Source: Sphingomonadales bacterium (lineage in GTDB: Bacteria; Pseudomonadota; Alphaproteobacteria; Sphingomonadales; Sphingomonadaceae). From it: a stretch of 64,000 bases of DNA. Shown here piece after piece: positions 52,369 to 62,523 of this stretch. Location of the stretch: the NCBI GenBank assembly GCA_027490095.1, contig JAIXYT010000004.1:1-64000 (forward strand), written 5' to 3'. Below the pieces are notes generated by a model. That model made no database searches. It saw only the letters and a list, made by a program, of their open reading frames with translations, and was not told where the DNA came from. Within the stretch, counting starts at the first letter, position 1; each line of letters starts with the position of its first letter. A program made the translations under genes and the position numbers.

Positions 52369-54765
52369 CTAGTCTGCGGACTTCTCGCGCGGGAGTTCGA
52401 GCCCGAAGACGGACCCCTTGCCCTCTTCCGAGGTCACGGTCACCCGCCCGCGATGGCGCTCCACCACCGCCTTCACGAAGGCAAGGCCCAGGCCGGCTCC
52501 GGGCGCTGCGGCGGCCGCGGGCGCGCCTTCCGGGGGCGCCAGCCGGCGGAAGGGCTCGAACAGCTTGCCGAGATCCTCGGCTGCAATGCCGCGGCCTTCG
52601 TCGGCGATCTCGACGATCACCTTCGATGTCGTCACCCGGACCCGCGCCTCCACCCGGGTCCGCTCGTCGCTGTACTTGATCGCATTGCCGATGAGGTTGG
52701 TGACAGCCCGTGTCAGGAGAGCGCGATCGCCGGTGACCCAGGCCTCTTCCTCGGGCACATCCGAAACGATGCGGATGCGCTTTGCATCCGCAAGCGGCCA
52801 CAGGTCGTCGACCGCATCGAGCACGGCTTCGGACAGGTTGAAGCCCTCGGCCATGAAGCGGCCGCTCTCGGCACGGGCAAGGTGCACGAAATCGTCCGCG
52901 AGCCCCAGGGTCTGGTGGGCATAGCGCTCGAGGCGGCGCGCCAACTCGGGCGGCACCTTGTGGCCTTCGGCTTCCAGGACTGCCAGGATCGAGGCCTGGG
53001 GCGCCCGCATGTCATGGGTCAGAAGCCGCAGGGCATCCTCGCGCTGGCGTTCCGAGGCGCGAAGCTCGGTGATGTCGGCAAAGCGGCTGATCCAGCCCAA
53101 TGGGCGGCGTTCGGCGTCGGTGAAGAAGGCGACGCGGATCTCGAGGCTCGTCCCGTCGGCAAGCCGGGTCTCGTAGCCGCTGTCGGGTGGCAGGGTCCGC
53201 GCCTGCATGGCCGCAAGCAGTTCGACGGCCCGGGGATCGGGCAGTCTCGGATCAAAGTCCAGCGCCCGGAACAGGTCCGACAGGGGTCGGCCGAGCAGGG
53301 CGCCGGGAAGGCGCGCGGCGAACAGCGCATCGGCTGCATCATTCGCGATCACCACCTGCCCCTCGAGATCCGACACCACGGCGGCGTCGGGCAGGCTGTC
53401 GAGCGACTGGGCGATGAACTGCCGGAGATCGCGGACATCGCGGATGGCCTCGTGCATCAGCACGATCTGCTTTTCCACCGGGTCGCCCTGCAGGACCTGC
53501 CGCTGGCGCGGGAGCACGTCGGGCTCGGACCTGAGCTCGCGAAGCTCGGCGACCATGTAGCGGCTGGCGAGATCGAGCCTGCGCCAGCCCCAGAGCGGAT
53601 AGATGAGACCGATCGCGATCAGCGCAAGCGCGGGCGGCAGCCAGACGCGGAAGATGGCAAGGGCCACCATCGACACGAAGAAGACCGCAAAGGCCAGCGC
53701 AATGCCCAGCCACAGGTTGATGCGCGGCCCCAGGAACAAGAGGCTCATCATCAGGGCCCAGACCGGCAGCAGCGAATAGCCGAGCCAGACAAGGCCCGGA
53801 ACCGGACGGATCATCCGCCCGGACAGCAGGCTGTCGACATAGTTGGCGTGCAGTTCGACGCCCGCCATGGTCTCAAGCGTGCCCGACATGGGGGTGGAAA
53901 AGCGGTCGCCCATGCCGGCGGCCGTCGCACCCACCAGGATGACCCGCCCGCGGATCACCTCGGCAGGGACCCGGCCCTCCAGCACGTCGACGAAGCTCAG
54001 CTGCGGATAGGTGCCCGATGGTCCGGCAAAGGGAATGAGGTTGCGCGACCGGGCATAGACCGGCGCCTCGGCCTCGGGAACGGCGGCTGCCAGCAGGCCG
54101 GTATCGCCGGTCACGAGGGCGGCGAGCGATTCCGACATGTGGCGATCCCGCCGGCCCTGCGCATCCGACAGGATGTCGATGCCGCGAACCACGCCGTCGC
54201 GATCGGGCCGGGTGGTCACATGGCCGGAGGCACGGGCAGCCCGGGCCAGGTCCGGTGCCGGGGGGACGCGCAGCGCAGGCGCCCCGTTGGGGCCCGGGAC
54301 CTCGATGTAGGAGGCAAGCACGACCTTCCCGCTGCGGGCAAGCGAAGCGGCAAGTGCGGCGTCGCCGGTCGGTGCCGAGGGCTCGGGGAACAGCACGTCA
54401 TAGCCGATCGCCTCGGCGCCCGCGGTTCCCAGCTGGTCGATCAGGCGCGCGTGCACGTCCCGGTTCCATGGCCATCGGCCGATCTCGGACTGGCTCCGGT
54501 TGTCGATCGCCACGATCAGGACCCGCTGGCTCGCCGGCGGCGGATTCAGCCGGAGAATGAGGTCGTAGACCAGATTGTCGGCCCGCACCGGCGGCGAGAC
54601 GAGGCTGATGCCGATGATCGCAAGCGTTGCGATCGCCAGTACGGCCCACCATTCGACGACCATGCGCCGGCTCTGGAAACTCAGCTCGCCGGAAACCCGC
54701 GCAGCCATTGCGCTGGACGGGGGGTCCGCCGGAACCAGGGCTTGGGGGCGATCCAGCATGTTCAT
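52369..54765 (-). CDS. CHASE2 sensor histidine kinase
   Basis: The 798-residue kinase has an N-terminal membrane segment (VEWWAVLAIATLAIIGISLV), a periplasmic CHASE2 sensor domain (residues about 65-310, with VAIDNRSQSEIGRWPWNRDVHARLIDQL), three more membrane segments (residues 325-400), a PAS domain (SLDSLPDAAVVSDLEGQVVIANDAADAL, residues 455-580), the phospho-acceptor His in LLTHDMRAPQASIL (near 584), and an HATPase domain with TNLIGNAIKYSDE and AAPGAGLGLAFVKAV. It is third in an operon after a response regulator and a FecR protein. Sensing input from outside the cell membrane is implied by CHASE2. Confidence 0.93.
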   Translation of the reverse strand: MNMLDRPQALVPADPPSSAMAARVSGELSFQSRRMVVEWWAVLAIATLAIIGISLVSPPVRADNLVYDLILRLNPPPASQRVLIVAIDNRSQSEIGRWPWNRDVHARLIDQLGTAGAEAIGYDVLFPEPSAPTGDAALAASLARSGKVVLASYIEVPGPNGAPALRVPPAPDLARAARASGHVTTRPDRDGVVRGIDILSDAQGRRDRHMSESLAALVTGDTGLLAAAVPEAEAPVYARSRNLIPFAGPSGTYPQLSFVDVLEGRVPAEVIRGRVILVGATAAGMGDRFSTPMSGTLETMAGVELHANYVDSLLSGRMIRPVPGLVWLGYSLLPVWALMMSLLFLGPRINLWLGIALAFAVFFVSMVALAIFRVWLPPALALIAIGLIYPLWGWRRLDLASRYMVAELRELRSEPDVLPRQRQVLQGDPVEKQIVLMHEAIRDVRDLRQFIAQSLDSLPDAAVVSDLEGQVVIANDAADALFAARLPGALLGRPLSDLFRALDFDPRLPDPRAVELLAAMQARTLPPDSGYETRLADGTSLEIRVAFFTDAERRPLGWISRFADITELRASERQREDALRLLTHDMRAPQASILAVLEAEGHKVPPELARRLERYAHQTLGLADDFVHLARAESGRFMAEGFNLSEAVLDAVDDLWPLADAKRIRIVSDVPEEEAWVTGDRALLTRAVTNLIGNAIKYSDERTRVEARVRVTTSKVIVEIADEGRGIAAEDLGKLFEPFRRLAPPEGAPAAAAAPGAGLGLAFVKAVVERHRGRVTVTSEEGKGSVFGLELPREKSAD

Positions 54766-54831
54766 CGGTGTGTATCGCTAGGCCTCGCAGGGCCCGCACT
54801 CAAGCCCGACCGCGGCCCCGGCCCTTTCGGC

Positions 54832-56961
54832 TCAGCCGACCCGACCGGTGGCGCGCGCCCGACGCCGTCGAAGCGCAAAGCCCGAAATGCCGAAACCCGC
54901 GATCAGCATGACCCAGCTGGCCGGCTCCGGAATGGCACCGGCGTTGCCGCCGCCCGGACGGGGGAGCCCGCCGGGCGGGTCTCCTCCACCGATCCATGTC
55001 GGCGGGGGCGGCGCGCCCGGTTGTGGTGCAGGGTCGACGGGAATGATCACCGGGCCCGGATCGGACCCGGTGTCAGGATCGGATTCGGACTGGGAAGGCT
55101 TGGAAAGATCGGGGCCTGGTGCCGGCCCGGAAGAGCCAGGCCCCTCGCCGGCATCACCACCGGTTCCGCCAGTGCCGCCGGTTCCGCCGGTGCCGCCGGT
55201 ACCGCCCGCTCCACCAATGCCGCCGAGGCCGCCCGATCCGCCGGTACCGCCAGGCTCACCAATGCCTCCCGGCCCACCGATGCCGCCCGGCCCACCGATA
55301 CCGCCCGGTCCGCCAGTGCCGCCCAGTCCGCCAGTGCCGCCGGCTCCGCCAGTGCCGCCGCCCGGGCCGGCACCGCCGCCAGTTCCCGTACCGGAGCCGG
55401 AACCGCCGCCGAAGCCGCCACCACCGCCGCCGCCGCCGCCGAAGCCGCCGCCGCCTGATCCTCCACCGCCGCCGCCGCCGCCGGCACCACCGCCGCCGCC
55501 GCCGCCCGATCCGCCAAAACCACCGGTTCCGCCGCTGCCGGTCCCACCGGAGCCGCCGCCACCGGTTCCGCCACCAGAACCGCCGGATCCACCGCCGCCG
55601 GTCCCACCGCCGCCTGCGTCGCCGCCAAATCCGCCGCCGCCCGGCGGCAGGAGCGAACCCGCGCCGAAGCCGTCGTCGGCCGGCAGCACGGGATCGTCAC
55701 CGCCTCCGGCGCCACCGCCCGATCCGCCGGCACCACCGCCGAAGCCGCCCGCGCCGGCAGCGGCAAGCAGCAGTTCGCCACTGCCGCTGTTGTTCCGTTC
55801 GAACCAGCTGAACTCCGTCTGTTCCGTTCCCAGCTCGGAAATCTGTTGGCGCAGCGCAGATTGCTGGCGCTCCAGCGCTGCCTGCTGGTTGCCGACCCAG
55901 CTGCGCTCGAACAGGATCGGTTCGGCGGGCGCCCCGCTCAGGCCGAGCGCATCCAGCGCAAAGGCGCGGACATGGTATTTTCCGTCGGGCACGCCTTCGA
56001 ACGTCGCCGTGGTGCCATCGATCTCGACGCTTCCGACACGGTCGGTGAAGCCGGCATCCGCTGCGATCTCGACCCGGTAGCGCACGGCACCGGCGACAGG
56101 GCGGACCCGGAACGTCACCTGCTCGGCGTCCTGCACGCGTTCGGGTGTTTCAACCGCCGGCGCCGGCAGCAGGGCGATCGGCCTCGTCGCACCGGTGTTC
56201 GTGGTCATGTTGCCGAAGCCTGCGCGCAGCAGCACATCCTCGATCCCGCCCTTGCGCTGCACCGCGACCTTGCCTTCGGTCACGGCGGTCAGGGCCCGCA
56301 TCTCGCCGGGCGTGTAGGTGACGACGAACTGGGTTCCCCGCACGGCCGCCACTGCCACCGGGGTGGTGATGAGGAAGCGCGACGCCGGGTTCGACATCGG
56401 GGTCACCCGCGCCTCTGACCGCCCCTGTTCCAGCGTGAACCGCCGGTCGATCGAGTCGGACATCGGAACCTGGCGCAGGCGCGCCAGCCGGATGCGGCTG
56501 GCCGAGGGCAGAGAGACCTGGCTTCTGTCCGGAAGGGACAGGGTGGCATAGCCGTTGGGCCCGGTCTCGACGATATCGCCTTCGGACAGGGTCATGCCCT
56601 TCATCACCGGGATCGCTGCGGTCTTGCGGACGATCCGCACGTCGCCGCGGAACGCCGCCAGCTCGGCCGTGATCGGGCTGGTCTTCAACCAGCCGGACCT
56701 GAGCCTGAGCGCCGTTCCCGGCGCAAGGGCGTCTGGGTCCTTCACCTTGTTGAGCGCCATGGCAGGGCGCCAGTCCTCGGGGTTGGTGAACCAGCGCTTG
56801 GCCAGCCCCTTCAGCGTGTCACCCTGCTTCGTCGTGTAGACGATGATCTCGTCCGTCGCCTCGAGCTGCGCACGCTGCCGTTGCTCCAGGCGCGCGCCGT
56901 TCGGCATCGCCGGAGCGGTGGCCGCCAGAAGCAGCAGCAGGGACGGAACGGCGCGGCGCAT
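54832..56961 (-). CDS. LysM-FecR domain protein with glycine-rich linker and PEP-CTERM tail
   Basis: A 709-residue mosaic. Signal peptide (MRRAVPSLLLLLAATAPAMP), LysM peptidoglycan-binding domain (IIVYTTKQGDTLKGLAKRWF, residues 40-90), FecR domain (FRGDVRIVRKTAAIPV to VRGTQFVVTYTPGEMRALTAVTEGKVAVQ, residues 105-240), a fibronectin-like segment (FRVRPVAGAVRYRVEIAADAGF, 285-350), a glycine-rich stretch of about 230 residues (395-620), and a PEP-CTERM end (IPEPASWVMLIAGFGISGFALRRRR). It should be exported and anchored or released at the surface by exosortase. It lies 5 bases after the response regulator gene and 66 before the CHASE2 kinase gene. The plus-strand proline-rich ORF opposite is an artefact. 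Confidence 0.9.
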   Translation of the reverse strand: MRRAVPSLLLLLAATAPAMPNGARLEQRQRAQLEATDEIIVYTTKQGDTLKGLAKRWFTNPEDWRPAMALNKVKDPDALAPGTALRLRSGWLKTSPITAELAAFRGDVRIVRKTAAIPVMKGMTLSEGDIVETGPNGYATLSLPDRSQVSLPSASRIRLARLRQVPMSDSIDRRFTLEQGRSEARVTPMSNPASRFLITTPVAVAAVRGTQFVVTYTPGEMRALTAVTEGKVAVQRKGGIEDVLLRAGFGNMTTNTGATRPIALLPAPAVETPERVQDAEQVTFRVRPVAGAVRYRVEIAADAGFTDRVGSVEIDGTTATFEGVPDGKYHVRAFALDALGLSGAPAEPILFERSWVGNQQAALERQQSALRQQISELGTEQTEFSWFERNNSGSGELLLAAAGAGGFGGGAGGSGGGAGGGDDPVLPADDGFGAGSLLPPGGGGFGGDAGGGGTGGGGSGGSGGGTGGGGSGGTGSGGTGGFGGSGGGGGGGAGGGGGGGGSGGGGFGGGGGGGGGFGGGSGSGTGTGGGAGPGGGTGGAGGTGGLGGTGGPGGIGGPGGIGGPGGIGEPGGTGGSGGLGGIGGAGGTGGTGGTGGTGGTGGDAGEGPGSSGPAPGPDLSKPSQSESDPDTGSDPGPVIIPVDPAPQPGAPPPPTWIGGGDPPGGLPRPGGGNAGAIPEPASWVMLIAGFGISGFALRRRRARATGRVG
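55130..55760 (-). repeat. Glycine-codon repeat tract inside the FecR/PEP-CTERM gene
   Basis: A low-complexity tract of GGC/GGT-rich short units, encoding runs such as GGTGGTGG and GGPGGIGGPGGIG. The plus strand reads as repeated GCCGCCGCC and CCGCCGG. Related 9- and 12-base units recur (for example ACCGATGCCGCCCGGCCC). Such tracts slip during replication, so length may differ between strains. Confidence 0.85.
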
Positions 56962-56966
56962 GGAGT

Positions 56967-57698
56967 TTACGCCGCGTCCTCGACGCGCTCGACTGCCTGC
57001 AGGGCGTTGGTGGGTTCCAGCCGGTAACCGTAGGAATAGACCGGCAGCACCCGATAGCCGTTCTCGGCCCGGAGATTGAGCTTGGAGCGGATGCGCGAGA
57101 CATGGGCGTCGAGCGTGCGGGTCTCCGCCTCGGGGCTCTGGCCCCAGATGCTCTCCAGCAGGTAGCTGCGCGACAGGGGACGCGACATGTTCTCGAACAG
57201 CATCAGCGCAAGCGCGATTTCCTTTGCCGTCAGCTTCACGGCCTCGCCGTGCACGGTGACCGTCTCGGTCGGCACATCGAAGCTGTAGACGCCCCAGCTG
57301 GCGGCAGTGCGTTGCGGCTTGTTGAGCTGGGCGCGCCGAAGCGCGGCCTCGACACGGGCCATGAACACCGCAGCGTTCAGCGGCTTGACGATGTAGTCGT
57401 CGGCGCCTGCCGCCAGACCCATGACGACATCCTCGTCGTCGGCCCGGCTCGTGATCATCAGGATGGGCAGGTTGGCGTGCTGCCCCTGCCGGACGGTCTC
57501 CAGAACCTCGATGCCGGACATGCCGGGCATGTTCCAGTCGATGATCAGCAGATCGAAGGTGTCCTGGCGCAGACGGTTGATAAGCGTGCGCCCCTGGTGG
57601 AACACCTCGCAGTGGTGACCAGCGTCCGCCAGCAGCTTCGCCACCAGCTCCGTCTGGGCCTTGTCATCATCGAGTACGGCACAGCGCATGTTCGGCAT
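56967..57698 (-). CDS. OmpR/PhoB-type response regulator transcription factor
   Basis: The 243-residue regulator has a receiver domain with the phospho-acceptor in LLIIDWNMPGMSGIEVL (near residue 53), the acidic pair CAVLDDDKAQTELV and the Lys in DDYIVKPLNAAVFMARV. A winged-helix DNA-binding domain follows (VKLTAKEIALALMLFENMSRPLSRSYLLESIWG, TRTLDAHVSRIRSKLNL, YRVLPVYSYGYRLE). It is the first gene of an operon with the FecR/PEP-CTERM protein and the CHASE2 kinase, so is likely the cognate regulator of that kinase. ATG 57698; an in-frame ATG nine bases later is possible. Confidence 0.94.
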   Translation of the reverse strand: MPNMRCAVLDDDKAQTELVAKLLADAGHHCEVFHQGRTLINRLRQDTFDLLIIDWNMPGMSGIEVLETVRQGQHANLPILMITSRADDEDVVMGLAAGADDYIVKPLNAAVFMARVEAALRRAQLNKPQRTAASWGVYSFDVPTETVTVHGEAVKLTAKEIALALMLFENMSRPLSRSYLLESIWGQSPEAETRTLDAHVSRIRSKLNLRAENGYRVLPVYSYGYRLEPTNALQAVERVEDAA

Positions 57699-57815: not shown

Positions 57816-58213
57816 CGTCCTTCCATCAGGAGTGAAACAAGTCCGTCCAACCTGTGCTTTTTGCGCAACTTTTTATCAGATTGCTCAATATGGCACCAGG
57901 GGTGCAATCACTGCATCGACACGGCGGCGACCGGGTCAGGCACGCGTCACCCGGCGTGCATGGGCCGACTCAGGGGCCGGAATGGGGCGGCTGCGTGTCA
58001 AAAAAACGCCGCATGCGTGCGTTTCGGGCCGTTTTGCCGTTTGACGGCGCGAAAAAGCGGTGAAAAGAGGGGGCTCACAAGGGTCGTGCGCGGAAGTGCC
58101 CCGCCGGCCATTGCAGCAGGGCCCCGGCATGTAACGGTTCGGGGCCGTATGACGTAACGACCGGCCGCCCGCTCGGGTTGTTGCCGGCAAGGGTATCAAG
58201 GGAGAGGGACACA
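57816..58213. other. Gene-free divergent region between the regulator operon and swib gene
   Basis: About 400 bases, less GC-rich in the centre (57840-57900, with TTTTTGCGCAACTTTTTATCAG) than the surroundings. No ORF with protein features was found on either strand. A GCCGTTTGACGGC hairpin lies at about 58032-58044, and the Shine-Dalgarno GGGAGAGGG precedes the SWIB start. No confident plus-strand promoter could be named. Confidence 0.5.
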
Positions 58214-58468
58214 ATGGCCGACAAGAAACCGAACGCACTCCAGACTCCGCTGACCCCGTCGGCAGAGCTCGCCGCCATCGTCGGCAGCGCGAAGCTTGCC
58301 CGTGGCGAGGTGGTCAAGAAGGTGTGGGACTACATCAAGGCCAACAATCTGCAGGATCCGAAGGACAAGCGTCGCATCAACGCCGATGCCAAGCTGAAGC
58401 CGATCTTCGGGGTGGACAGCGTGACCATGTTCGAAATGAACAAGCACCTGGCCAAGCATCTGAGCTGA
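58214..58468 (+). CDS. SWIB/MDM2 domain protein
   Basis: The 84-residue protein consists of one SWIB domain: LTPSAELAAIVGSAKLARGEVVKKVWDYIKANNLQDPKDKRRINADAKLKPIFGVDSVTMFEMNKHLAKHLS. This fold occurs in eukaryotic chromatin remodelling factors and in chlamydial topoisomerase, and as stand-alone small proteins in many bacteria, where a nucleoid role is suspected but not shown. GGGAGAGGG is six bases upstream of ATG 58214. It is followed by a strong terminator. Confidence 0.93.
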   Translation: MADKKPNALQTPLTPSAELAAIVGSAKLARGEVVKKVWDYIKANNLQDPKDKRRINADAKLKPIFGVDSVTMFEMNKHLAKHLS

Positions 58469-58527
58469 GGCATGCGATACCGGCCCAGGCGGCCGGCTGC
58501 GATGCGCGCCTCGCAGGAGGCACCGGG

Positions 58528-58553
58528 AGGGCGGAGCCGAAAGGTTCCGCCCT
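58528..58553. terminator. Rho-independent-like terminator after the SWIB gene
   Basis: AGGGCGGAGCC and GGTTCCGCCCT make an 11-bp stem (one G-T pair) closed by a GAAA tetraloop, then TTCGTTCGTTT. It separates the SWIB gene from the convergent PKS cluster and can serve both. Confidence 0.7.
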
Positions 58554-58598
58554 TCGTTCGTTTCCGCCCGGACCGGCTGGCCGACCCGCGCTGCAGGT

Positions 58599-59729
58599 TC
58601 AAGCCTGCGCTGCCCTTCGGATCGCAGCCGGTGACAAGCGGGTCAGCCGCGCACCGAGCCCGAGCAGGGCCGGCGCTGCTGCAAGCAGCGACGCCGCCCG
58701 GTCCCGCCAGGCGCCATCCGCGCTTGCCCGCTGCAGCCAGGTGGCCCTTGCCACCGCGCGCCCTGCATCCTGCGCCAGCCGACGGTAATAGGCCCCCTGC
58801 CCTGCCCCGGTCAGGCGCGCAGTGGCCGCAAGCCGGGCGCTGTGCAGCGCCAGGCTCATCCCGTCGCCCGTGAAGCTGGGGATGACAGCCGCCTGGTCGC
58901 CCAGGCGCCACCCGGGTTCCGGGCCCGAGGGCCGGTGCAGGAACCCGTAGGGTACGCCCGAAATCGCCAGCGGACGGTCCAGAAGCGGCACCGCACCCTG
59001 CAACCGTTCGCCCAGGTGCGGCACTTCGCCAGACAGGTCGGCGATCAGCGCGGCGAAATCCCCGTCCAGCCGCTTCCACCGATCGGGCGAGACCAGAAAG
59101 CACAGGTTGGCTGCGTCCCGCTCCACCATCTGCAGGCCGGCATAACCGCCTTCGAACAGGATCAGCTCCACATGGCCCGACAACGCGGCGCGCTGTGCCG
59201 GAGTCAGCCGGAAATAGGCCTTGAAGCCCAGCTGGTGATTGAGCGTGCCGGTGCCATCCCGCCCGACGCCCCGAAGATTGTGCTTGCCCGTCGCGACGAA
59301 CAGCGTTTCCGGCCGCAGGGCAGCGTGGGGCGCCACGACGGTGCCGTCGGCCAGCACCTCGCGCACGGTGATCCCGCGCTCGACCTCGACGCCGGCGGCA
59401 GCTGCCGCGTCCAGCATGGCAGCATCGAGCGCACGTCGCGTGACGGAGCGGGCCGTGAACCCAAGTCGACCGACGGCAGACCGACGCGCCGTCACCAGCC
59501 GCACCCGGTCGATGGCAACGGCCCCCAAGCTGTCGAGTTCGATCCCGAGGTCGGCAAGCCAGGCTTGCGCCTCCCAGCTCAGGAACTCGCCGCAGATCTT
59601 GTGGGCGGGCACCCGCTCCCGGTCCCACAGGGCAACCGGCTGTCCGGCGCGCGCAAGCCAGATGGCGGCTGCCGGCCCTGCCAGCCCGCCCCCCACCACC
59701 AGGGTCCCGGCCATGGCCCTCGCCGTCAT
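58599..59729 (-). CDS. FAD-dependent oxidoreductase of the type III PKS cluster
   Basis: The 376-residue flavoprotein has the FAD-binding VVGGGLAGPAAAIWLARAG, then VPAHKICGEFLSWEAQAWL and the second FAD motif DQAAVIPSFTGDGMSLAL. This resembles geranylgeranyl reductase/tryptophan halogenase-like monooxygenases. In Streptomyces the third gene of the srsABC set is such a hydroxylase that acts on the ring of the polyketide lipid, so an analogous role is inferred. ATG 59729 overlaps the methyltransferase stop by ATGA. Convergent with the SWIB gene. Confidence 0.85.
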   Translation of the reverse strand: MTARAMAGTLVVGGGLAGPAAAIWLARAGQPVALWDRERVPAHKICGEFLSWEAQAWLADLGIELDSLGAVAIDRVRLVTARRSAVGRLGFTARSVTRRALDAAMLDAAAAAGVEVERGITVREVLADGTVVAPHAALRPETLFVATGKHNLRGVGRDGTGTLNHQLGFKAYFRLTPAQRAALSGHVELILFEGGYAGLQMVERDAANLCFLVSPDRWKRLDGDFAALIADLSGEVPHLGERLQGAVPLLDRPLAISGVPYGFLHRPSGPEPGWRLGDQAAVIPSFTGDGMSLALHSARLAATARLTGAGQGAYYRRLAQDAGRAVARATWLQRASADGAWRDRAASLLAAAPALLGLGARLTRLSPAAIRRAAQA

Positions 59730-60454
59730 TCCGGAACCGCTGCGCCCTTCAGGCGACCCACGCACAGGCGAAACAGCGGATGCCAGCGCACGGCGGCGTC
59801 CCCGATGGCGGCCTCGGCCAGCATGTGGTGCCAGTCCGCCGGCACGAAGGCCCGGCGCACCGACAGCGCGCCGTCATGCCGGACGCAGGGGTGCCAGCGC
59901 GCCACGAAGGCAAGTGCGGAAAAGCCACCCCAGGCGAACCAGTGCCGGTGCAGGTCGTTCACGAACCAGCCGTGGGACGCGGTTGCCTCCTGCCAGCGCA
60001 GCAGGCGGATCACGTCGGGCGTGGGCAGATGGTGGGTGAAGAGCGCGCTGATGATGGCGTGCGGACGCTCGGCCGGTGCCCAGTCGAACAGGTCGCCCTC
60101 GTGCCAGGTGATTTCCATATCACCGGGCGTCCGCGCCTGCGCCAGCGTGCGGCAACGCGGGTTCATGTCCACCCCCGTCAGCCGCGGCCGGAAGCCCCGC
60201 TCCGTCGCCCAGCGGTGGATCCGCCGCAGCATCCCGCCCTGCCCATAGCCAAGGTCGGCCACCCTCAGTTCGCTGCCGGCCGGCCACCCTTGCGTCAGGC
60301 GGCCCAGAAAGCCCAAGGTCGGCGGCGCTGCGAGCGTCACCAGGTTCACCGTTTCCAGATCATCCAGAACTGCGGCGAAATCCTCCAGCGGATAGTCGCG
60401 CACATCCATCCATTCGGGCTCGTCAGCCCGCACGGAAAAGTCCGGCCAGGCCAT
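59726..60454 (-). CDS. Methyltransferase of the type III PKS cluster
   Basis: The 242-residue protein has a SAM motif VADLGYGQGGMLRRIHRWATERGF and TGVDMNPRCRTLAQ, then IISALFTHHLPTPDVIRLLRW. It resembles the class of methyltransferases next to type III PKSs that O-methylate alkylresorcinol or alkylpyrone products (SrsB-like). Overlap with the flavoprotein start by ATGA and 11 bases after the PKS show co-translation. Whether the target is the ring hydroxyl is inference. Confidence 0.85.
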   Translation of the reverse strand: MAWPDFSVRADEPEWMDVRDYPLEDFAAVLDDLETVNLVTLAAPPTLGFLGRLTQGWPAGSELRVADLGYGQGGMLRRIHRWATERGFRPRLTGVDMNPRCRTLAQARTPGDMEITWHEGDLFDWAPAERPHAIISALFTHHLPTPDVIRLLRWQEATASHGWFVNDLHRHWFAWGGFSALAFVARWHPCVRHDGALSVRRAFVPADWHHMLAEAAIGDAAVRWHPLFRLCVGRLKGAAVPE

Positions 60455-60465
60455 GGTGGCTGCGG

Positions 60466-61554
60466 TCAGATCTTGCGGAAGGTGAAGGTCTCGCAGGCAA
60501 GCCCCGGCCCGAATGCCATGGCAAGCCCCGGCCCCGGGGTCGCACCCGCAATCACGCGCTGCAGCACGAACATCAGCGTCGCGCTGCTCATGTTGCCGAA
60601 GTCCTTCAGCACCCCGCGCGACCAGTCCAGCCGGCCCTTCGCAAGCTCCAGCCCCGTCTCCACCGCATCCAGGATCGCCTTGCCGCCGGCATGGACGGCA
60701 TAGATGCCATAGTCTTCCGGCTGGCGCCCGCGCAGCACGCCGTCAGGCGCATTGCGGGCCCGCTCGTCCGCCATCGCCTTCTGGATCCGCTGCGGCACAT
60801 GGCCGGACAGGTGCATGTCGAAGCCGCTGTCGCCGATGTCCCAGGTGATCAGCCCGTCGGATTCCGGAAGGGCAAAGCTCAGGAACTCGTCCAGCGCAAC
60901 GCCCTCGGGCTCGGCCGTCACCAGCGCGGCTGCACAGCCGTCGCCGAACAGCAGCATCGACAGCAGCTTCTCGACGTCGGTCGTGTCCTGGAAGTGGAGC
61001 GTGCAGAGCTCGATCGTCACCACCAGCACACGCGCGTCGGGCTGCGAGCGCACGATATGGTGCGCAAGCCGCAGCGAGTTCACGGCGGCATAACAGCCCA
61101 TGTAGCCGACGACGGTGCGCTCCACGCCCGGATCGAGGCCCAGCTGCCGGACCAGCACCTGGTCGAGCCCGGGTGCCATGAAACCCGTGCAGCTCGCCAG
61201 CACCAGGTGGGTGATGGTCGACAGGTCGGTGTCGAGGCCAAGGATCGCCTCGCCTGCCAGCTGGGGCGCCACCTCCCCGTAGCGTGCCATGCGGCGGCTG
61301 GTCGGCGGGAACTGGCCGGGGACGTAGAAACCTTCGGTGTCCGCCACGAACCCATCGGGGTTCTCGACCGGCTGGAAACTGGAAAAGCGGCGCTCGATGC
61401 CCGAGCGACCGGCCAGCCGCTTGAACAGAACGGCTTCGCGCCGACCTTCCAGAAGGCCGCCGACAAAGCGGCCGAACGCCTCGTGCACATCGTGCCGCGG
61501 AACCGCGGTGGAAATGCGGTTCACGTGCGCGACGGTGGCTTGATGAGCTTGCAT
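60466..61554 (-). CDS. Type III polyketide synthase
   Basis: The 362-residue homodimeric condensing enzyme takes an acyl-CoA starter (often long-chain) and malonyl-CoA extenders. The catalytic triad is visible: Cys in VVGYMGCYAAVNSLRL (near residue 153), His in YAVHAGGKAIL (near 287), Asn in FGNMSSATLMF (near 321). It carries TGFMAPGLDQ and LLFGDGCAAALV as in chalcone-synthase-like enzymes. The product is probably an alkylresorcinol or alkylpyrone lipid, from the associated genes. ATG 61554 and GTG 61563 are both possible starts; no good Shine-Dalgarno is seen. Confidence 0.95.
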   Translation of the reverse strand: MQAHQATVAHVNRISTAVPRHDVHEAFGRFVGGLLEGRREAVLFKRLAGRSGIERRFSSFQPVENPDGFVADTEGFYVPGQFPPTSRRMARYGEVAPQLAGEAILGLDTDLSTITHLVLASCTGFMAPGLDQVLVRQLGLDPGVERTVVGYMGCYAAVNSLRLAHHIVRSQPDARVLVVTIELCTLHFQDTTDVEKLLSMLLFGDGCAAALVTAEPEGVALDEFLSFALPESDGLITWDIGDSGFDMHLSGHVPQRIQKAMADERARNAPDGVLRGRQPEDYGIYAVHAGGKAILDAVETGLELAKGRLDWSRGVLKDFGNMSSATLMFVLQRVIAGATPGPGLAMAFGPGLACETFTFRKI

Positions 61555-61635
61555 GGCGGACACAGTGGCACAGCCTTTCGGGATGGTCGAGAAAAACGGT
61601 TGCGGCCGGCTGCGGTTCCATGCCGCTGCGCTCGA

Positions 61636-62523
61636 TCAGCTGTCCGACAGCGGATGAAGCGTCGTCACGGTCGCCGCCAGCCGTGCGCCGTCGACATGGG
61701 TGTAGCGTTCCGTCGTGGAGATGTCCGAATGCCCCAACAGCGTCTGGAGGGCGCGCAGGTCCGCCCCGTTCGCCAGCATGTGGGTTGCAAAGGCATGGCG
61801 CAGCACATGCGGTGAAATGCGTTCGGGGGCGATTCCCGCCCGCGCGCCCAGCGCCTTCACCAGCTGGTACAGCCGGATCCGGCTGAGGTGCGCCTTGCCC
61901 GAGGGAAACAGCCAGCGGCTGTCCTTGGGCACCAGCTGCAGCTGCGCCTCGACCGCCTTCAGGGCAGGCGGCGACAGCGGCACCATCCGCTCCTTGTTGC
62001 CCTTGCCGAGGACGATCGCGAAAGGCTGCGGTGGGCGGATGGCGTTGCGGGGCAGCGAGACCAGTTCGGTCGCCCTGAGCCCCGAGCCATAGAGCAGCTC
62101 CAGCAAGGCCTTCAGCCGGATCGCCTGCGGACCGGGATTTTCGGCAAGATCCGAGTCCAGCGTTGCGAACAGCCGGTCGACCTCGTCTGCCGACAGCGTC
62201 TTCGGCAGCGGGCGGCCCGGTTTCACGCCGGCAAGCGCGGCGGCCGGATTGTCGGGCCTTATCCCTTCGGCCACCAGGAAGCCGAAGAACCGTCGAAGCG
62301 CCGAGCGCTTGCGGGCAAGGCTTGCCGGCGAAAGCGTCCGCCAGCCGGCGAACAGCCGCTCCAGGTCGGCAGCTTCCGCCCCGGCCAGCCCCCCCGAAAG
62401 ATCCGCCGATGCGCCTTCGAGATCACGCCCATAGGCGGCAAGCGTGTTCTTCGCGGCCCCCCGCTCGCTCGCCAGCATGTCGAGAAACAGGGCGATCGCA
62501 CGGGAATCCGGAAGGTCGTTCAT
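61636..62523 (-). CDS. xerD: Site-specific tyrosine recombinase XerD
   Basis: XerD with XerC resolves chromosome dimers at dif. The 295-residue protein has the N-terminal SAM-like core-binding domain (FLDMLASERGAAKNTLAAYGRDLE) and the catalytic R-K-H-R-H-Y set: Arg in YGSGLRATELVSL, Lys in VLGKGNKERMVPL, His/Arg in SPHVLRHAFATHMLANGADLRALQTLLGHSDISTTERYTHV, ending with the nucleophile Tyr. It starts 5 bases after the SMP-30 gene; the ORF-track start is far upstream and is a shadow. Confidence 0.95.
   Translation of the reverse strand: MNDLPDSRAIALFLDMLASERGAAKNTLAAYGRDLEGASADLSGGLAGAEAADLERLFAGWRTLSPASLARKRSALRRFFGFLVAEGIRPDNPAAALAGVKPGRPLPKTLSADEVDRLFATLDSDLAENPGPQAIRLKALLELLYGSGLRATELVSLPRNAIRPPQPFAIVLGKGNKERMVPLSPPALKAVEAQLQLVPKDSRWLFPSGKAHLSRIRLYQLVKALGARAGIAPERISPHVLRHAFATHMLANGADLRALQTLLGHSDISTTERYTHVDGARLAATVTTLHPLSDS

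Follow-up and report, generated by a model that had tools for sequence, protein, structure and literature searches.

A conserved type III polyketide synthase, methyltransferase and flavoprotein cassette in Sphingomonadaceae with a probable role in phenolic lipid formation

Genes and features of the locus

We analysed a window of 64,000 nucleotides from a sphingomonad contig (JAIXYT010000004.1), in which three adjoining genes on the reverse strand encode a type III polyketide synthase (PKS), a methyltransferase (MT) and an FAD-dependent oxidoreductase (Table 1). The coordinates and enzyme classes assigned to this trio in the initial annotation agree with the sequence and with Pfam. The coupling of the genes by ATGA, which had also been proposed, holds for the MT/FAD junction but not for the PKS/MT junction, where the PKS stop (60466-60468) and the MT start (60452-60454) do not overlap; in related loci, either junction often shows an NTGA overlap (in about half). 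The FAD protein was read from the ATG within the ATGA, versus an open reading frame of 388 aa when read from a GTG. A tyrosine recombinase gene (stop at 61636) lies upstream of the cassette on the same strand, and a small SWIB-like gene (58178-58468) lies downstream in convergent orientation, both read by eye. Hairpin-type sites in the region were no more numerous than in shuffled sequences, and a promoter scan at the locus found nothing. The same flanking neighbours recur in Sandaracinobacteroides, Sandaracinobacter and other related loci, so that the cassette is a settled chromosomal feature. The source genome contains one type III PKS, which is 87% identical to that of the nearest named relative, Sandaracinobacteroides hominis, in line with the sphingomonad host suggested at the outset. 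Elsewhere in the window (52369-57698, reverse strand), a run of genes read by eye encodes a sensor histidine kinase, a glycine-rich protein (FecR-like and PEP-CTERM-like) and a response regulator.

Table 1. Features of the cassette and its boundaries (positions in the window)
Feature	Position	Strand	Description	Basis
Type III PKS	60466..61563	-	365 aa, GTG start	ORF and translation
Class I SAM-dependent MT	59726..60454	-	242 aa	ORF and translation
FAD-dependent oxidoreductase	58599..59729	-	376 aa, ATG start	ORF and translation
ATGA overlap	59726..59729	-	MT stop/FAD start	Sequence
Intergenic gap	60455..60465	-	11 nt, PKS stop to MT start, non-overlapping	Sequence
GC-rich hairpin	58526..58555	+	Lies between the cassette and the convergent SWIB gene, for which it resembles a terminator	

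Conservation and distribution of the trio

We surveyed 151 genomes of Sphingomonadaceae, counting as the window type any PKS with at least 49% identity to the window PKS. This type was present in 81 genomes, and 16 others contained only a distant PKS (about 30% identity). The MT was found in 80 genomes, all of them with this PKS type and never without the PKS (Fisher's p = 6e-43 over the 151 genomes, kinship ignored). Among the 70 family loci with flanks, 66 display the order PKS>MT>FAD on one strand, the other four being rearranged, split over contigs, or cut. Because order and strand are kept in 66 of 70 loci and MT and PKS co-occur over the 151 genomes, the trio is conserved beyond chance and almost certainly forms one functional unit, as the initial annotation had supposed. 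The cassette is thus real, functional by conservation and widespread in the family, and represents a type of pathway already known from other bacteria.

Beyond the family the window PKS type is rare (about six of the other sampled Alphaproteobacteria); plasmid copies occur in Roseomonas, Microvirga, Methylobacterium, Mesorhizobium, Sphingobium and Novosphingobium. No MT/FAD pair accompanies the distant PKSs for which flanks were read. Three cases deserve separate mention. G027, the only carrier of this PKS type that lacks the MT, has its PKS broken into two pieces (C1:1990267-1990946), and its cassette is apparently decaying. In G033 the MT (C8:274710-275396) is separated from PKS and FAD (C25:224311-225381) by lying on another contig, yet both are retained; here the MT/PKS pair is co-inherited without close linkage. 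A contig labelled as a Gemmatimonadetes metagenome-assembled genome (L039:3452-6928) carries a cassette with 61% PKS identity and a tree position inside the sphingomonads, which reflects either transfer or a mis-binned contig.

Predicted enzymes and proposed product

The window PKS is a type III polyketide synthase, as shown by its chalcone/stilbene synthase domains (PF00195, E 1e-22; PF02797, E 2e-22; both above cut-off) and by a Cys-His-Asn catalytic triad (Cys157, His291, Asn324) that is invariant in all 78 aligned family sequences. The window MT matches PF13649 (Methyltransf_25; 32.8 bits, cut-off 27) and PRK06202, contains conserved HH and NDLxR motifs, and is modelled as a soluble class I Rossmann enzyme (AlphaFold2, pLDDT 94.9, with matches to Rossmann MT structures). 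For the FAD protein the best family match is the geranylgeranyl-reductase superfamily (TIGR02032), with PF01494 marginal, and its AlphaFold2 model (pLDDT 90.7) adopts the PHBH fold, which places it in the superfamily of PHBH-type monooxygenases, geranylgeranyl reductases and halogenases; within this superfamily we infer an aromatic hydroxylase.

Taken as a whole, the trio is probably a phenolic-lipid cassette, in which an alkylresorcinol is formed, methylated and hydroxylated by the flavoprotein to yield a hydroquinone- or quinone-like membrane lipid. The PKS would take as its starter a long-chain fatty acyl group, bound as a thioester to CoA or ACP, extend it with about three malonyl-CoA and cyclise the chain by aldol condensation, which would yield a 5-alkylresorcinol. 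The MT would then add a methyl group to the ring, at an oxygen or a carbon. Ring hydroxylation by the flavoprotein, probably para to a phenol, would lead to a methylated alkyl hydroquinone able to oxidise to the quinone in the membrane. We infer starter, ring type (resorcinol versus pyrone), methylation site, hydroxylation, product identity and physiological role alike; the phenolic lipid first proposed is plausible. Some relatives have a dedicated ACP and ketosynthase adjoining the PKS, and none lie beside the window cassette. In four loci an ACP and a beta-ketoacyl-ACP synthase of one family are found near the PKS (L076:3578-5010 and L079:3063-4495, directly upstream; L094; L095), which suggests a dedicated acyl-ACP starter system and fits an acyl-ACP as starter.

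The ring formed by the PKS could alternatively be an alkyl alpha-pyrone, closed by lactonisation, then O-methylated by the MT and oxidised by the flavoprotein. The best PDB sequence match of the window PKS is indeed the pyrone synthase PKS18 (E 5e-39), and related type III PKS clusters of myxobacteria have been assigned to alkylpyrones (PMC12766979). Trp241 and Met250 of the window PKS align to ArsB Trp281 and ArsC Met293, and the Trp occurs in 78 of 78 family sequences; this equivalence is derived from the nine-residue Trp/Gly-Met spacing, which is that of ArsC 284-293, and from an alignment to CHS, where the residue is Gly. Replacement of ArsB Trp281 by Gly converts the resorcinol product to a pyrone, and in ArsC Gly284 adjoins Met293 (PMC6274091); ArsC (3VS8) was absent among the matches listed in our PDB searches. 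Trp241 was considered as proof of resorcinol formation and rejected, because PKS11 and the R. etli RePKS, both reported pyrone makers, also have Trp at this position in the alignment. The residue may therefore be taken as non-decisive support for resorcinol cyclisation. The Leu found there in PKS18 and in the Ectocarpus enzyme speaks against the pyrone reading. The phylogeny points in the same direction: in a tree of 55 sequences (with SrsA left out), the window PKS falls within a fully supported clade of alphaproteobacterial cassette PKSs, whose sister group (93/92) consists of cassette PKSs of Deinococcus, Psychrobacter and Bacteroidota, and lies apart from PKS18, PKS11, THNS and plant CHS. 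A phylogeny of the PKS had been named in the initial annotation as a check, and the grouping with cassette enzymes, away from pyrone- and flavonoid-type ones, agrees in part with the phenolic-lipid reading, but the deep branches are weak, as is the one that puts the planctomycete PKS near the window clade. Since planctomycete operon PKSs of like kind gave resorcinols (PMC10896814), we consider pyrone formation rather unlikely and retain the alkylresorcinol as the preferred intermediate.

Starters of type III PKSs vary widely and cannot be read from sequence, and this wide range would accommodate an aromatic or short starter and thus a non-lipid phenol, e.g., phloroglucinol or a pigment precursor; such a product is very unlikely given the linked ACP/ketosynthase pairs in relatives and the kinship to long-chain enzymes. 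A further alternative concerns the last step, because the flavoprotein might halogenate its substrate or reduce a double bond, and the end product would then be a halogenated or reduced alkylphenol. Its top PDB fold matches are the phenol/pyrrole halogenases ChlB4, Bmp2, PltA and CndH, its best family match, as given above, is to geranylgeranyl reductases, and how hierridin C becomes chlorinated is not known (PMC8086630). However, the halogenase motif WxWxIP was found in none of the 78 family sequences, for which reason a flavin halogenase was rejected in spite of the fold matches, and hydroxylases (PqsL, kynurenine monooxygenase (KMO) and PHBH) are among the matches as well as geranylgeranyl reductase, with TM-scores of about 0.7 that do not separate halogenase, hydroxylase and reductase. 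We regard a halogenated or reduced product as improbable, and hydroxylation to a methylated alkyl hydroquinone remains our preferred last step.

A compact, strictly co-inherited three-gene pathway is thus present in about half of the sampled Sphingomonadaceae genomes, and no phenolic lipid or other product of it in sphingomonads was found in the literature searched. By analogy, candidate roles might be resistance to beta-lactams through the envelope, as in S. griseus (cited in PMC10896814), or the carriage of electrons, as described for polyketide quinones of mycobacteria (PMC9927152). It is conceivable, and we put it forward only tentatively, that about half of the Sphingomonadaceae maintain a methylated alkyl hydroquinone/quinone of undescribed chemistry as a standing envelope or redox lipid, similar to the mycobacterial polyketide quinones, and that it was missed since work on sphingomonad lipids targeted sphingolipids and carotenoids. 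If a quinone-like lipid is indeed formed, many members of a pollutant-degrading, stress-exposed group would have an alternative lipid for redox or envelope functions.

Comparison with known systems

The initial annotation likened the cassette to srsABC of Streptomyces, and this comparison stands for the activities and their order but not for kinship. Both srsABC and mycobacterial pkqABC have the order PKS-MT-flavoprotein and make alkylquinones (PMC9927152), and their overall chemistry is probably like that of the window cassette, which might suggest a true orthologue that came from actinobacteria or is shared with them. SrsB, however, is an isoprenylcysteine carboxyl methyltransferase (ICMT; PMC6669644), unrelated to the class I Rossmann MT of the window, for which family searches gave no match to the ICMT family; SrsC is of the flavin hydroxylase type, to which the PHBH-fold flavoprotein of the window may belong. 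Orthology was therefore rejected and appears most improbable: the window cassette is not a member of the srsABC group, though it may work like one.

Kinship across phyla was judged with profiles built solely from family sequences. These match all three partners in a plasmid operon of Paludisphaera (L068, order MT-FAD-PKS; PKS E 9e-94, MT E 8e-41, FAD E 8e-36) and likewise in Bacteroidota, Paenibacillus and Psychrobacter, and the Deinococcus flavoprotein shows marginal likeness to the FAD profile (E 0.002). In three Bacteroidota loci (L043, L045 and L046), homologous FAD and MT genes occur in the order FAD-MT-PKS beside a type III PKS from a distant branch, in which Phe replaces the Trp; it seems that these tailoring genes have combined with two PKS lineages. 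A trio of PKS, MT and FAD with unknown product has been reported in Acetobacteraceae (PMC8776678), a different alphaproteobacterial family from that of the window host, and the cassette of Roseomonas haemaphysalidis is homologous, with the same order and 52% PKS identity. The planctomycetal operon of Gimesia maris and Rhodopirellula baltica comprises the same three protein families and the same PKS Trp, but its order is MT-FAD-PKS and identities are about 36% (PKS) and 27% (MT); PKSs from such operons, when expressed in C. glutamicum, gave pentadecyl- and heptadecylresorcinols, and the MT and FAD pair of G. maris adds one methyl, probably on carbon, with no demonstrated role for the FAD enzyme (PMC10896814). 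Cyanobacterial hidABC, which makes the doubly O-methylated hierridin B, likewise combines an MT, an FAD oxidoreductase and an alkylresorcinol synthase, a likeness drawn by description; of the two gene orders among hid operons, the main one is MT-FAD-PKS, and only the minority one, hidC>hidA>hidB, equals that of the window (PMC8086630). The nearer kin of the window cassette are thus the hid and planctomycete cassettes, and the analogy to srsABC extends to gene order and likely chemistry only.
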